Assembly: GCF_028369105.1 (NCBI RefSeq)
Contig: NZ_JAQNDO010000001.1
Span: forward strand, 11,812,501-11,876,500
Direction of reading: 5' to 3'
Length of the DNA: 64,000 nucleotides
Origin: Polyangium mundeleinium
GTDB lineage: Bacteria > Myxococcota_A > Polyangia > Polyangiales > Polyangiaceae
The position numbers and the translations under genes are program-made. Positions 33,555 to 39,566 of the stretch are shown here, in pieces; position 1 is the first letter of the stretch, and the number at the start of each line of letters is the position of its first letter. The notes beneath the pieces are model-generated. The model made no database searches. It saw only the letters and a program-made list of their open reading frames with translations, and was not told where the DNA came from.

Positions 33555-33653
33555 GCGGGAAGGGTAACGCGTGCCGCGCGAAGGTGGGAGTTTCCGGCGA
33601 GTGCCTTTCGTTCGGGGGTGAAGCCTGGGCCGCTGGCAAGCAGGCGGGGCGGC

Positions 33654-34172
33654 TCAGAACACGCGTCCGAGCTCGTTCCTCGCCACCATCGCCTCGAACT
33701 GCTGCCCGAGCGTCCGGGCGAAGCGAGCGTCCCGCACGAGCACGCCGGCCTCGATGTTGTCGTTCTGGGCGGCCTCGCTGAAGTTCGCCGACGACACCAG
33801 CGCCACCTCGTCGTCGACGCTCACGCACTTCGCGTGGAGCTTGGGCGCGTGGTCCCCCTCGAGCGCGCGCGGGTCGTAGAAGACGGCGGGCAGGCGGGCG
33901 TCTCGCCAGTGCCTCTCCACGAACGAGCGGCGGAACGCGGCCACCGGGTCCTCCCCCCGCTGCATCTTGCCCTCCATCAGCTTGCGGCTGACGTTCACGA
34001 AGATCCGCACCTCGAAGCTCCCGTCACGTCGCATCTTCTCCACGAGCGGCGCGAAGAGCTTCTCCGACGCGCCGACGTTGCCTCGGTTCTCCACGGCCGG
34101 CAGCCAATCCTTGTCGAGCGACAATCGCCCCTGCTTCACCCCGCGATCGAGCCTCGGGTCCGCCTCGCGCAC
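33654..34172 (-). pseudogene. C-terminal remnant of a DrmC-like phospholipase D protein
   Basis: A 172-residue ORF holding only the second half of a PLD-family protein. The HKD-type motif is KLHAKCVSVDDEVALVSSANF, and NDNIEAGVLVRD follows. HWRDARLPAVFYDPRAL upstream of it matches the layout of DrmC, the PLD protein of DISARM anti-phage loci. The N-terminal half with the first HKD motif is absent, and the sequence before it (to about 34300) is open only in another frame without recognisable homology. With the drmMI-like and drmD-like pieces at 40-41 kb it looks like a relic. The ORF itself could still be translated from GTG at 34172. Confidence 0.6.
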
Positions 34173-34299
34173 GGACCTGGAACACGAACGCCGCGTCGCG
34201 GGGCTCCTCGGAGGCGCGGCGATTGACGAGGAACAATGTATTACGACGACGAAGGGGGCGGGCGAGAGAGGGACGTCCCCTCACAGATTCTGTCCGTTG

Positions 34300-34318
34300 C
34301 AACGAAAGTTCGTTGACA
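34300..34318 (+). promoter_or_regulatory. dyad overlapping a -35-like hexamer
   Basis: CAACGAA-AG-TTCGTTG (34300-34315) is a perfect 7-base inverted repeat. It overlaps TTGACA at 34313-34318, a perfect -35 hexamer. A hexamer at 17-base spacing (TTAGCC) is a poor -10. The site lies about 140 bases before the secreted protein gene at 34459 and could be its promoter with an operator. Confidence 0.4.
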
Positions 34319-34458
34319 ACACGTGGCCCACACTGTTAGCCATGCTTACATAAGATTCTTTTGTCCCGTGGCATTGGCTGGCGTGCCCCTGTTTGGTCTC
34401 GCCCATGCAGCCGCGCCTCGCGGACGGTGAGAGTTGCACACTTTCGCAGGGAGTATCG

Positions 34459-36708
34459 ATGTCCACGTCCAGAATCATCGATGGTCGTCCAAGAGCGGCG
34501 GCATCCGCCGTGCAACCCGATCTCTCGAAGCGCCGGAGGCGCGGGCGGGCATTCAGGATCGCCGCCGCAGGGCTCGGCGCATGGGCCTCGATGGGTGGTC
34601 CTTGGCTCGCCGGCGACGCATCGGCGGCCGATCCCATCAAGGTCACGATCACGTCGGGCGGGCCCGATCGCGCATACCCGCTGGGGCAGGAGTTCCGCGT
34701 GGAGGGGAAGCCGGCGAAGGTCCCCGAGCAGGTCGACCTCGTCATCGTCCGGGCGGCGCAGACCATCCTGGGAGTTGGCGACCCGTCCGGCAAGACATGC
34801 TCCGACGTGAAGGAGAGGATCCTCGACGGCAAGGGGAACGTGCGTGAGTTCGAAAGGAACGCGCCGGTCGGCGCAACGAGGTTTGATGCGTTATGGGGCA
34901 CGGTCGACAAAGGCATAAACGAGCTCTCGGCGTACCGGGCGAGCCCGTGGAAGCGCGAGTCCGAAAAGGACACGACGTATTCGCTGTTCGTGCCGAACGA
35001 CAGCATGTTCATGCCGGGCGCCAGTTATTGCGTCTTCCTGCTCCAGACCGACAAGTCGCCGCTCGTCATGAAAGGGATACTCGAGGCCGTCACCAAGTTC
35101 GCGGAGGGATGGGGCGTGTGCGACGGGGCCCCCAGCCCGAACGACTGCACCACCGTGAGCAACACCTACGATCAAGCAATCAAAGATGCGCTCGAGGCCT
35201 CGAACCTGGACGCCAAGGGAAAGGCCGACGTCCAGAAGCAGCTCGATGGATTGAGGAGCGCTCTCGACACGGTGCGCTTGACGTACAAGCGTTGGGGGGA
35301 ATTCGTCACCCACTGGGACCGCGCGGTCTACAAGCGTGGTGATAGCAAGGGCGTCAAGAGGCCGAATCTCATCGACATTCAGGTCGATCTTTCGGAAGAC
35401 CCGCCGGCCTCGCTCCCCAAGCTGATCGCCGATCTGCTCGTGGCGCACGGGGAGCTCGTAGCCGTCCCGACGAAGGTCAAGCTTCCCGCCAAGGGCACGG
35501 AGAGAGAGGTATGGCGGGTCCAGTATCTGGCGCCGGAGGGGATGCGCCCCATCACCCACATCACGATCGACGGCGATGGGGAGGTGATCCGGGTCCGCAA
35601 CGCGAGTGATTCCAAGGCGCCCACGGCGCTGAAGACCAAGACCTCCGGCCTTTCCCTGCCGGGCTCGAAGATCACCCTGCGCGACCTCCTGGAGCTCTCG
35701 CTCGGCAAACTCAAGTTCGGCTCGCAGTATCTGACCCTCTCGGAGGGACAGATGAAGGAACTAAACACGGTCCTCGACAAGAGCGGGCTCAACATCTCTA
35801 CCAAGAAGCTCGAGACCACCGTCGATCCCTTCCTCGATTGGCTGGGGGAGCTCGACCTCGCGGTGACACGCGCGTGGCAGGCGGGGGCTCCCGTGGCGGA
35901 GCCCGTGCCCTTCGTGCTCACCTGGACGCCACTCTACGCGTCCCTTGGCGCGTGGCTCAAAGAGGCGGTGCTGAACCCTTGTGACAAGTTCAAGGTCCTT
36001 CCGAAGGGCCTCGACCTAGGTTCATGCGTCCCGGATCAGGGCAAACCGACGGAGGCCGCCTGGCCGGGCTTCCAGGATAACCGGAAAAACCCGATCTGGA
36101 GCTTGCGGGATAGTCTCAACAATCTTCGCAACAGCGCGGTGCAGGCCCAGACGTACAAGACCGACCTCGAGGGCCGAACGCAGCTCTCCAGCACGAAGCT
36201 CGCCTCCACGATCAACGTCGCCAACAGGATCGATCGGAACGCCTGGTTCGGGCAACACGTCGTGACGACCGTCGGGGTCGCCAATGTCATCAACAGCGCG
36301 GCCCCGCTCTGGGTCAATTATTACGGGTTCAAGCTCTACTTCTGGGCCAACCCCGTCGACCAGCCCCGATGGGTGGGGAGCCCCATGTGGTACCGCAACC
36401 TGTCCCTGGAGTTCGCGATCGTGCCGAACCTGGATACCTTTGGATCCTCCGGGCGATACCAGGGCCTTTCCAAGGGCGACATCCCGCCGCTCATGGTGGG
36501 CGCCGCAATTCAGCCCGTGCCTTACATCACGCTCTCCGCCGGTGCCATCTTCATGGAGAGCCGGCAGACCGTGCTCCCTCAAGAGAGGGCGAGCACCTTC
36601 ATCAGCCCCTATGTCGCGTTCGCGGCCGACCTCAACCTGCTCGACTTCGTGGCTGCCGCCCTGAGCCAGGGGCGCACGACCACCATCAGCGCGCTCGTGA
36701 AGCCGTGA
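34459..36708 (+). CDS. large secreted protein of unknown function
   Basis: A 749-residue exported protein with no family I can name. ATG at 34459 follows AGGGAG. A long n-region with RRRRGRAFR leads to a hydrophobic stretch and a signal-peptidase-like site (DASAAD), which may suit Tat or Sec export. An Ig-like beta segment (DPIKVTITSGGPDRAYPLG) follows, then helical domains with paired Cys (GVCDGAPSPNDC). The C-terminal 150 residues have amphipathic strands (NYYGFKLYFWANPV, ISPYVAFAADLNLLD) that look like an outer-membrane barrel or an autotransporter-like end. It heads a cluster with the two following genes. Confidence 0.75.
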   Translation: MSTSRIIDGRPRAAASAVQPDLSKRRRRGRAFRIAAAGLGAWASMGGPWLAGDASAADPIKVTITSGGPDRAYPLGQEFRVEGKPAKVPEQVDLVIVRAAQTILGVGDPSGKTCSDVKERILDGKGNVREFERNAPVGATRFDALWGTVDKGINELSAYRASPWKRESEKDTTYSLFVPNDSMFMPGASYCVFLLQTDKSPLVMKGILEAVTKFAEGWGVCDGAPSPNDCTTVSNTYDQAIKDALEASNLDAKGKADVQKQLDGLRSALDTVRLTYKRWGEFVTHWDRAVYKRGDSKGVKRPNLIDIQVDLSEDPPASLPKLIADLLVAHGELVAVPTKVKLPAKGTEREVWRVQYLAPEGMRPITHITIDGDGEVIRVRNASDSKAPTALKTKTSGLSLPGSKITLRDLLELSLGKLKFGSQYLTLSEGQMKELNTVLDKSGLNISTKKLETTVDPFLDWLGELDLAVTRAWQAGAPVAEPVPFVLTWTPLYASLGAWLKEAVLNPCDKFKVLPKGLDLGSCVPDQGKPTEAAWPGFQDNRKNPIWSLRDSLNNLRNSAVQAQTYKTDLEGRTQLSSTKLASTINVANRIDRNAWFGQHVVTTVGVANVINSAAPLWVNYYGFKLYFWANPVDQPRWVGSPMWYRNLSLEFAIVPNLDTFGSSGRYQGLSKGDIPPLMVGAAIQPVPYITLSAGAIFMESRQTVLPQERASTFISPYVAFAADLNLLDFVAAALSQGRTTTISALVKP

Positions 36709-36720
36709 GGGGAAATTGCC

Positions 36721-38409
36721 ATGTGGAACGACACAAATGACTCGAATGGAGGAGAAACGAATGGAGATTTACGACCTTCGCGTGGAGGGCCCGGTGGTGA
36801 ACGGGAAGCCGCACGAGCTGGAGATCGAGTACACGGCGCCCGAGGGAGACGTGATTACGCTCGAATTGTATCCCAGCTCGTTCCAGTTCAAGGAGAAGGA
36901 CGACAAGCTGGTCGACACGGTGAATGTGAAGCTGCCACCGTCGGGCGTACGGACGACCCACCGCGAGAAGGTGATTATCACCGGCAGCATTTCGAGCGTG
37001 ACGATCTTCGTGAGCACGAAGCCCCACATCAGGCGCACACGCACGTTCCAGCCCTCGTCCTGATCCTCGCCGCGGCGCTCGCGGGGGGCTGCTCGGACGA
37101 CGCCCCGCTCGTGACCACGCGTATGCGTGTCGACAAGCTCGACCTTGCGGCGGGATGTTATCGGCCCTGCGAGGGGTCGGCGACGGTCACCGAATACGAG
37201 GAGGGGCTCTGCCCCGACGGGAGCAAGGCGGCCTGCGGCTTCGAGGCCGGGCTCGGGCAATTGCGGGTCGTCGTCCCGGTCGAGGTGGACCTCGAGACGA
37301 AGGAGACGCTCGCTCCGCCGACGCTCACCCTCCTCGTCGACGACGAGCCGACGACGATCACGGACGGGCGGATCGTGGAGCATCCCCTCGGCAACAAAGC
37401 GGTGTTCTCGGCCGTCGTCGACGTGCCCACGCAACAGGCCGCCAGCTTCCTGCTCCAGTTCAAGGTGGTGGAGGGGTACGAGGCGGCGTCGACGAACTTC
37501 ACCATCGCCGCGCCCGCGCTCACGACGAATCTCCACGCGGGCGCATCCACGCTGCCCGCGGGCTTCGGCAATGTCTCCGTCGGGGTCCGCACGCCCGCCG
37601 GATTGCAGGGCGGGAAGCTCCGTCAATGGATCGGAGACGAGCCGCTGCAAGAGCTCGACATGGCCCCGAAGAGCACCGACCCGGGTTACTCCGAGTGGCA
37701 GGTCTCGGTCGCCACGCCCTCCAAGGTCGGCACCTGGAAGCTGCAAGCCTACGTGGGAGGCCACGCGGCCACGCCCGTCTCGGTGACGGTCGAGGACCCG
37801 AAGCACCACCTGGAAATCGTGGGCTGCGTCGACGATTCTTGCGAAAAGAGGGCCGGCGTCGGCAAGGCCGACGTCGAGGTGGAGACGCTCACGACCGTCC
37901 AGGAGGCGAGCCTGCTCCAGTGGATCGACGGCGTGCAGCAGCTCCCGGTCGCCTTCACGAAGGGGCCCATTATCGACGGCAAGCAGCGCTGGACGTTCAG
38001 CGCGAACACGCTGATCCAGGAAGGCGCGACCTGGCGCTTTCAGGCGGTGGCCGGCGGGTTCTCGTCGAATTCGCGAATCGTGACGATCGTGAGACCCGGC
38101 ATCGAGGTCGGCATCCTGCCCTGCACGCCGGGGCTTGCGTGCGCCCTCGAAAAGGGGAGCGAGGCCATCCTGGTGGTGACCGCGCCGCGCGACATCACGC
38201 CGGCCAAGGCCAGCGTCAAGGTGACCTTGAACGGCATCCCCGTCCCGAACATCGATTACCCGGTGAGCCTGGACGAGGTGATAGGCGACAAGCGCGTGGG
38301 GTATTTCACGACCACGGTGCCGGACGCTCCGGAGAAGGTCTGGCGGGCTCGCGCCGTGATCAACCAGAGCTCCTCGGACGCGAGCCAGCCAGTCGAAATC
38401 CTACCTTAA
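36721..38409 (+). CDS. lipoprotein with repeated Ig-like domains; start unresolved
   Basis: The supported product begins near 37042 with HVPALVLILAAALAGGC, a textbook lipoprotein signal core and lipobox. Four to five beta-sandwich units of about 90 residues follow (KLRQWIGDEPLQELDM, SLLQWIDGVQQLPVAF). The repeats TWKLQAYVGG and TWRFQAVAGG show the duplication, and paired Cys sit in DDSCEK and PCTPGLAC. No ATG, GTG or TTG lies in frame close before the signal. The only upstream start is ATG at 36721, which has an AGGGGA site but puts about 107 Arg-rich residues ahead of it, antiphase to the better-supported 36761 gene. A frameshift joining the two frames is likely. Confidence 0.7.
   Translation: MWNDTNDSNGGETNGDLRPSRGGPGGEREAARAGDRVHGARGRRDYARIVSQLVPVQGEGRQAGRHGECEAATVGRTDDPPREGDYHRQHFERDDLREHEAPHQAHTHVPALVLILAAALAGGCSDDAPLVTTRMRVDKLDLAAGCYRPCEGSATVTEYEEGLCPDGSKAACGFEAGLGQLRVVVPVEVDLETKETLAPPTLTLLVDDEPTTITDGRIVEHPLGNKAVFSAVVDVPTQQAASFLLQFKVVEGYEAASTNFTIAAPALTTNLHAGASTLPAGFGNVSVGVRTPAGLQGGKLRQWIGDEPLQELDMAPKSTDPGYSEWQVSVATPSKVGTWKLQAYVGGHAATPVSVTVEDPKHHLEIVGCVDDSCEKRAGVGKADVEVETLTTVQEASLLQWIDGVQQLPVAFTKGPIIDGKQRWTFSANTLIQEGATWRFQAVAGGFSSNSRIVTIVRPGIEVGILPCTPGLACALEKGSEAILVVTAPRDITPAKASVKVTLNGIPVPNIDYPVSLDEVIGDKRVGYFTTTVPDAPEKVWRARAVINQSSSDASQPVEILP
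36761..37063 (+). CDS. small beta-rich protein
   Basis: A 100-residue protein starting MEIYDLRVEGPVV behind GGAGGA. Alternating strands (ELEIEYTAPEGDVITLELYP, REKVIITGSISSVTIFVSTK) suggest a single beta-sandwich. The codon usage is strongly GC3-biased, supporting real coding. Its frame and that of the downstream lipoprotein overlap, with the lipoprotein signal peptide beginning inside its last codons. There is no signal peptide, so if it is exported it needs another route. It could be the upstream part of a frameshifted lipoprotein gene. Confidence 0.6.
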   Translation: MEIYDLRVEGPVVNGKPHELEIEYTAPEGDVITLELYPSSFQFKEKDDKLVDTVNVKLPPSGVRTTHREKVIITGSISSVTIFVSTKPHIRRTRTFQPSS

Positions 38410-38415
38410 ATGAAA

Positions 38416-38450
38416 GGGGGGCGAGCCCGACGCGTGGGCTCCCCTCCCCC
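38416..38450. terminator. bidirectional terminator-like hairpin
   Basis: Between the convergent genes ending at 38409 and 38457, GAGCCC (38423-38428) pairs with GGGCTC (38436-38441) over a 7-base loop. The stem is flanked by a G run before and a C run after that can extend the pairing. No T tract is obvious. Confidence 0.5.
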
Positions 38451-38456
38451 CATTCC

Positions 38457-39083
38457 TCACCCCTCCGCGCCGTCGTCCTCCGCCGCGCCGCTCGCGCGCA
38501 GGTGGATGCGCTTGTATTCTTTCGACGCCGGCCCGTGCGCGGCGCGCACCACGCGCTTGAAGGCGAGGTACTTCTCGTAGGCCGGACCGTAGGCCGCCGC
38601 GCGCGCTTGCTTGGCGTTCGCCAGGTCCTTGTTTGCGTCGATTGATTCGTTGATTTCCTTCACCACCTGCGGCGCGAGCTTGCCGAATTCGCCGTTCACG
38701 ATGTCGTCGGCCCAGGCGCTCCCCACGTGATCGTCGATCGCGTCGAGCAGGGCCTCGATGGCCGTCATCTTGTCGGTATCGGTCGGCTGCCTTTTCAGGG
38801 TATCGGGCACCCGGAGCGTCGGCACGTAGGCCAATGCGACGGCGCGCGCCTCGCGATAAGGTCGATCGATCGATTCGAGCGCGGCCGCCGCCTCCGTGCC
38901 CTCCTTGCCCGCGGCGCTCTCGCCCGCCACGACCGACTTGTGCGCGCCGAGGAACGCCGCGGCCGCCGCCTTCAAGACGTCCGCATACACGCGCGACACG
39001 ACCTGCCGCGCATCCGGAGCCACGCCGAGCTCCTCACTTCGCGTGAGCACCCGATGAAAGCGCTTGTAGTCGATCCCACTCAT
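38457..39083 (-). CDS. hypothetical helical protein
   Basis: A 208-residue soluble protein I do not recognise. It is predicted to be almost wholly helical and starts MSGIDYKRFHRVLTRSEEL behind GGGAG. Ala-rich helices (YADVLKAAAAAFLGAHKSV, AKQARAAAYGPAYEKYLAFK) alternate with short linkers, and the tail is acidic. No Cys, membrane segment or catalytic motif is visible. A 21-bp tandem repeat array begins about 220 bases upstream of its start and might belong to its control region. Confidence 0.7.
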   Translation of the reverse strand: MSGIDYKRFHRVLTRSEELGVAPDARQVVSRVYADVLKAAAAAFLGAHKSVVAGESAAGKEGTEAAAALESIDRPYREARAVALAYVPTLRVPDTLKRQPTDTDKMTAIEALLDAIDDHVGSAWADDIVNGEFGKLAPQVVKEINESIDANKDLANAKQARAAAYGPAYEKYLAFKRVVRAAHGPASKEYKRIHLRASGAAEDDGAEG

Positions 39084-39303
39084 CTCTCCCTGACCTCCCT
39101 GGCGCAGTGTACGCCCGTTTGGTGTGGACGGTAGCAGAAGGCTTGTGGGCGGGGGAGCAGAACCGTACGGCTGTACACGATCGATGAGGAGACGGGCCGG
39201 AGCGCGGGGCGGGGCTGCGCGAAGCGGGGCCGGGCGTGCGCGAGGAGAACGCGGCGGCGCGGAAACGAAAAGCTTTTCCGTGGGAAGCGGAGGCTCGGAC
39301 CCA

Positions 39304-39408
39304 AGGAGCGAATCGCTCGTCCGCAGGAGCGAATCGCTCGTCCGCGGGAGCGAATCGCTCTTCCGTGGGAGCGAATCGCTCGTCCGTGGGAGCGAGTCGC
39401 TCTTCCGT
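39304..39408. repeat. five 21-bp tandem repeats with an internal dyad
   Basis: Five consecutive 21-base units, each of the type RGGAGCGAATCGCTCKTCCGY, start at 39304, 39325, 39346, 39367 and 39388. Every unit contains the near-palindrome GAGCGA-A-TCGCTC (G in place of the central A in the last). The array sits in the 483-base gap 39084-39566, which otherwise holds nothing I can support. ORFs across it read simple heptapeptide repeats in either direction and are not convincing genes. Confidence 0.85.
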
Positions 39409-39566
39409 GGGAAGGTCGGCGTGTGATGTAGCTCGCTTCCCCCAACGTGCAGGAGGGAGCCGCGGGGAGACGAGGAGCGAGAGGCGGAGACGTTTGGAGC
39501 GCGGGGAGGTCGGTTTGGTTGGTTGCCTCAGGGGTGGTGGTGGAGCGGGGGCGAGGGCTCTCCGCT

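Follow-up and report, generated by a model that had tools for sequence, protein, structure and literature searches.

Where does translation of a lipoprotein begin when its gene has no start codon near the signal peptide? This question is raised by an open reading frame (ORF) in a window of 64,000 nucleotides of the Polyangium mundeleinium genome (11812501–11876500 of contig 1; the genome comprises 13.25 Mb in 2 contigs). The frame, at 36721–38409 on the + strand (562 aa), carries HVPALVLILAAALAGGC, and the codon for its lipobox cysteine is at 37090–37092. Like other bacterial lipoproteins, which are substrates of signal peptidase II, the product has a hydrophobic core, then AGGC, which we take to be a lipobox-like pattern, and a mature sequence beginning with Cys-Ser-Asp-Asp. 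Unlike them, it has neither an assignable start codon nor a charged n-region, and no lysine or arginine codon occurs in the lipoprotein frame between 37024 and the cysteine. ATG 36721 is the only ATG, GTG or TTG upstream of the cysteine in this frame, and the next in-frame starts (GTG 37111 and ATG 37123) lie behind it. The initial annotation was thus right that the signal has no nearby start, none being present in frame between 36721 and 37111.

The lipoprotein is encoded by the last of three + strand genes. The first (34459–36708) specifies a protein of about 749 aa that has homologues in seven other genomes and an N terminus that reads as a putative signal-like region. The second, small gene (36761–37063, 100 aa) begins with an ATG that has AGGAG 6 nt upstream; it ends in VSTKPHIRRTRTFQPSS followed by TGA at 37061–37063, exactly as had been described beforehand. 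The third gene is delimited by codon use and by a family profile as a mature lipoprotein of 439 aa, running from the lipobox cysteine to the stop at 38409 (37090–38409). The part coding for the signal peptide, VPALVLILAAALAGGC, occupies 37045–37092. The small gene runs into it: its stop codon falls within the hydrophobic core, and 26 bases separate this stop from the lipobox cysteine codon. Judged by the signal-peptide lengths of the relatives described below, the start would be expected within 37024–37065 (+ strand). Here the lipoprotein frame lacks ATG, GTG and TTG but contains the near-cognate codons ACG 37039, GTT 37045, CTG 37060 and ATC 37063. No Rfam family reached threshold over 34000–38600, and a scan for promoters and terminators gave counts near shuffle level (0 versus 0.4 and 5 versus 3.0 (s.d. 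1.7), respectively). Another lipoprotein of the window did not match this one on comparison. The signal peptides suggest that the module may act at the cell surface.

The simplest interpretation of the long ORF is that it is translated as it stands from ATG 36721, which has GAGG 10 nt upstream and is followed by an open frame. Codon use does not bear this out. Segmentation by codon use assigns 36744–37028 to the 36761 frame and 37052–38386 to the lipoprotein frame, leaving 23 bases between them without assignment. Codon use favours the 36761 frame to about 37030 and does not turn in favour of the 36721 frame until about 37050, and the score of the 36721 frame is strongly negative across most of 36721–37050. 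In the lipoprotein frame this stretch has a GC content by codon position of 0.81/0.53/0.39 and does not look coding. A start at ATG 36721 would moreover place 123 codons ahead of the lipobox cysteine.

Homologues of the module are confined to distant relatives. Single-sequence searches recovered only the organism's own genome for the lipoprotein (in 59 genomes, and in genome contigs and plasmids), for the large protein (in 59 genomes and in genome contigs) and for the small protein (among 108 genomes of the family). Across 377 genomes of the phylum, the large protein found two others besides its own, G321 (E 1.8e-18) and G285 (E 1.6e-7); weaker matches (G389 at E 2.7e-4, G420, G348 and G176) were used only in tblastn. 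The lipoprotein gave weak matches only in the same 377 genomes, the best of which (G187, E 0.0015) falls inside an ORF that we take to be sulfatase-like and was dropped. A three-member profile of the large protein (own, G321 and G285) matches 7 of 317 genomes of the class, own included, and a lipoprotein profile matches the same seven among 306 class genomes; in 363 phylum genomes the lipoprotein profile has three matches, again own, G321 and G285. The large protein lies directly upstream of the lipoprotein, with a tblastn match of E 7e-20 to L052. Large protein and lipoprotein occur together in the eight genomes found (window 34459–38409, L052, L053, L070, L071, L072, L073 and L074), the large gene of G498 being cut by a contig end.

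Homology of the lipoproteins themselves was assessed with a profile of the seven relatives' sequences made without the window. It scores 164 bits on the mature lipoprotein of the window (E 2.3e-49), whereas the best of 1000 shuffles reaches 7.5 bits. Identity to the relatives is 15–30%, the highest value being that to G122, a member of the same family. By eye the lipoproteins look like strings of ~90-residue beta domains; a structure model of the mature window protein is too poor for use (pLDDT 47).

A gene for a protein of about 100 aa lies between the large protein and the lipoprotein in five of the seven relatives, at the same position and with a similar size. G494 and G498 have no small gene, and the lipoprotein directly follows the large gene. 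The small proteins of some relatives are evidently alike (G490–G489, Z 15.5; G122–G490, Z 5.7) and those of others are not (G321–G285, Z −0.7). The window protein does not align significantly with that of G122 (Z 1.7, matched by 30 of 500 shuffles) and gives Z values of 1.6, 0.6, 0.4 and −0.2 with G321, G285, G489 and G490, respectively; it was also absent among the matches listed for a profile of the five small proteins, among which some 40 shuffles were listed. A single-sequence structure model of it is all-beta (pLDDT 70). Compared with the PDB, this model matches no entry at E ≤ 0.001; an immunoglobulin-like protein (3n6y) and complement chains are among its weak matches. Position, size and the predicted all-beta fold are the grounds on which we tentatively assign the small gene to the module.

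The relatives reveal how the lipoprotein gene normally begins. With starts that we chose from the sequence, each of the seven has a canonical ATG or GTG that overlaps the upstream stop or follows shortly after it, and the two genes share 0–4 bases. One junction is a GTGA overlap (G122, VKRRTLLLALPAVAAAIGPGC), one is ATGA directly after the large gene (G494, MKRLGLLLLPLCAC), and three are TGATG, of which two follow a small gene (G490, MTRNATLLLILVAAC; G489, MRGTPFALACALAGC) and one directly follows the large gene in the absence of a small gene (G498, MTSTTARPLAILSVVGALAAC). In the remaining two the ATG stands 10 bases after the small-gene stop (G321, MTPQSLFIAALVGTAC) or 51 bases after the stop (G285, where a GTG 18 bases after it is the other candidate). 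All these homologues have complete lipoprotein-like signal peptides. ATGA and TGATG overlaps are described as present in many prokaryotes in an account of such gene pairs (PMC6728339). Five of the seven relatives resemble such coupled pairs in having GTGA, ATGA or TGATG, whereas the window has CTGA/TGATC at the stop and its upstream gene extends into the signal-peptide codons. A termination–reinitiation pair would be expected to have a canonical start close to the upstream stop, a few bases away at most; the window has only the near-cognate CTG and ATC there. The distance from stop to cysteine is also short in the window, at 26 bases versus 29, 41, 41, 55, 56, 59 and 150 in the relatives (the first value, that of G494, becomes 35 if the second cysteine is the lipidated one).

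The same comparison weighs further against translation from ATG 36721. In four of the seven relatives (G490, G489, G321 and G285) a stop within ~75 bases upstream of the lipoprotein start leaves no room for a counterpart of the region read from 36721. In G122, G494 and G498 the open frame reaches further upstream, but a canonical start is available where the two genes meet. A conserved N-terminal extension, which the initial annotation named as evidence against its own proposal, is thus not seen in the seven relatives, and we regard the long ORF as a hardly credible protein.

No such comparison is available within the genus. Five sister genomes align with the window as far as about 33601 (33617 in G004), and their match resumes at about 38417–38457, so that a genome-specific segment extends from 33602 to 38416, with approximate borders. 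Between these flanks, four of the sisters have ~1.9–4.1 kb of other DNA on one contig; in G001 the flanks of the site are on different contigs. Neither the single sequences of lipoprotein and large protein nor the two profiles matched any of the five sisters at E 0.001. Homologues in sister strains, which had been put forward as a check, are thus found in none of the five species, and the ancestral junction cannot be read from them. The site appears to be variable. At the same site, G003 (L036 6924–8849) and G005 (L037 7236–11053) carry other genes, in both cases an ORF of 351–355 aa that we read as lipoprotein-like next to an ORF of 260–275 aa, and the G005 site also holds an ORF that we label ATPase-like on our own reading.

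Two further features were noted around the segment. At its left edge, a 172-aa ORF (33654–34172, − strand) matches the C-terminal part of the DISARM protein DrmC, covering profile positions 129–264 of 267 (PADLOC E 8.5e-42; NCBIfam 94.9 bits versus a cut-off of 133), and looks like a truncated defence gene. To the right of the segment, at 39080–39430, a pattern of short peptide repeats (ERFAP-like and SESLVRG-like) runs across several overlapping ORFs. Similar repeats adjoin the same gene in G003 and G005, and the pattern suggests a short intergenic tandem DNA repeat.

We somewhat favour the reading that the lipoprotein has lost its stop–start junction with the small gene by mutation and that its product is now absent or made at a low level. 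The weights that we give to this and the other readings are judgements and were not computed. In the ancestor, the small gene would have ended at or just before the lipoprotein start codon, as it does in the relatives. A mutation would then have taken out both the stop and the start, either by deleting a short piece or by substituting a few bases. The codons that precede the hydrophobic core, the part in which the relatives have their start, now include no start in the lipoprotein frame and no stop in the small-gene frame. The small gene would thereafter read on into the signal-peptide codons and stop at a chance TGA within CTGATC, and the lipoprotein frame would be left without a canonical start, with the protein either not made or made at a low level. 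One such event would account for both the missing start and the overlap. We infer loss as the direction of change, a single causal event and lowered expression.

As the cassette was found in none of the five sisters, weak selection on it is plausible. The 439-codon mature part is open, has good codon use and shows no internal stops or further decay, so any loss would be recent or incomplete, perhaps with some function retained; at 68% GC stops are rare, and an open mature frame is accordingly less telling. The gene thus resembles a start-loss pseudogene in its open downstream frame, its missing start and its start-bearing homologues, and differs from one in showing no further decay such as internal stops. 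Against loss stands the fact that no close relative carries the cassette, the nearest homologue being 30% identical, and that the small protein of the window lacks significant similarity to those of the relatives.

The intact frame and normal codon use of the lipoprotein would equally be expected if the gene were still translated from a non-canonical codon by ribosomes that have just finished the small gene. We consider such termination–reinitiation possible, at well below even chances. CTG 37060 and ATC 37063 occupy the −4 and −1 overlap positions that five of the seven relatives use, the window presenting CTGA/TGATC where those relatives show GTGA or ATGA and TGATG. Rare non-canonical starts in overlaps have been raised for coupled gene pairs in PMC10666635, which also quotes, from an experiment on all 64 codons, an efficiency of ~0.3% for an ATT start. 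With a near-cognate start coupled to the small-gene stop, output of the lipoprotein might be no more than a low, constant proportion of that of the small protein. Translation from CTG or ATC would, however, leave only 10 or 9 residues before the cysteine, none of them lysine or arginine, compared with 11–33 residues in the relatives. GTT 37045 and ACG 37039 would give signal peptides of ordinary length (15 and 17 residues), but the best Shine–Dalgarno-like matches upstream of them comprise only three bases (AGG and AAG) at poor spacing. Nor does any of the seven relatives need a non-canonical start.

A different solution had been offered by the initial annotation, in which a one-base shift near 37040 would join VSTKPHIRRTR to the hydrophobic core and so create a perfect signal peptide. 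The VSTKPHIRRTRTFQ reading is that of the small-gene frame, in which GTG 36998 and GTG 37010 are ordinary codons. As this n-region lies in the small-gene frame, the shift would remove the stop of the small gene and fuse the small protein to the lipoprotein; the two genes are separate in all five relatives that have a small gene. KPHIRRTRT aligns with the C-terminal tails of the small proteins of four relatives (for example EASVARART of G122), which suggests, if only weakly, that the apparent perfection of the signal peptide is probably accidental. The third forward frame has stops at 36999 and 37011 and no start from 36981 to 37130, and working through the list of frames by hand we found that inserting or deleting one base here never gives two separate genes with a canonical start. 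A model with two indels, in which GTGA at 36998 or 37010 is the true junction, was rejected: it needs two compensating changes within ~60 bases and also removes the end of the small protein.

Could the ribosome rather than the DNA make the shift? Two coding frames that abut and differ by −1 are what programmed −1 frameshifting from the small protein into the lipoprotein would require, and a heptamer of the right form (X_XXY_YYZ) and phase is present at 36787. This heptamer is the only one in 36761–37063 and lies ~270 bases upstream of the point where codon use switches; there is no slippery heptamer at the junction. A frameshift product would carry its signal peptide buried inside the fusion, and relatives manage without fusion, keeping small gene and lipoprotein apart wherever both occur. 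We therefore consider a programmed frameshift, one of the causes that had been suggested, extremely improbable.

A sequencing error had been suggested as well, and the organism might indeed have a normal junction that was lost from the assembled sequence through an indel or a small misassembly. To gauge how unusual the locus is, we surveyed 464 kb of the same genome (the window and 20 stretches of 20 kb) with the crude criterion that no start codon occurs from −75 to +45 of a coding onset. Fourteen of 349 onsets, including that in the window, are start-less, which makes a missing start uncommon in this genome but not unique. Seven of the 14 were inspected, the window's among them, and two were compared with the sisters. 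Three of the inspected onsets (L088, L093 and L101) look like in-frame read-on of low-complexity sequence. The onset in L100 shows no length difference from the nearest sister and is thus not a change of this genome alone. In L092, near 12064 (C1:5212064), the onset belongs to a conserved gene of which all five sisters carry intact copies; its length departs from theirs by a single base, and the difference sits exactly where the coding frame switches. This may be either a real frameshift or an assembly error, and it indicates that such events, errors or mutations, do occur.

Two observations speak against an error. The nearest sister, G003, is 95% identical to the window over 52.9 kb aligned, and comparison with it, covering 44.4 kb of listed genes, left no frame-breaking indel uncompensated within coding segments of the window. 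The indels that were flagged are compensated pairs in G003 and fall outside coding segments in G004 and G005. As no single-base indel in this stretch yields two separate genes with a canonical start, the only nearby GTGs belonging to the small-gene frame, we judge an assembly error to be unlikely, although less so than frameshifting or translation of the long ORF. Among the three causes that the initial annotation listed, a mutation is hence the best reading, in the form of a lost junction, and the specific one-base shift has found no support.

The libraries searched contain no counterpart of the module. Pfam has no family for any of the eight lipoproteins, nor for the large and small proteins of the window. 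In NCBIfam the window lipoprotein scores 17 bits versus a cut-off of 140, which we take as chance, and the large and small proteins have no match. PADLOC matches none of the three module proteins, and the lipoprotein profile has no match among PDB sequences. The module thus appears to be without a match in Pfam, NCBIfam (above cut-off), PADLOC and the sequences of the PDB.

The homologous loci outline a small gene module. If the window lipoprotein is silent, an annotation that begins at 36721 would describe a non-existent protein, and the locus illustrates how a lost start can mimic a frameshift. If the lipoprotein is expressed, the locus would instead offer a tractable case in which coupling to the gene upstream rescues a near-cognate start.
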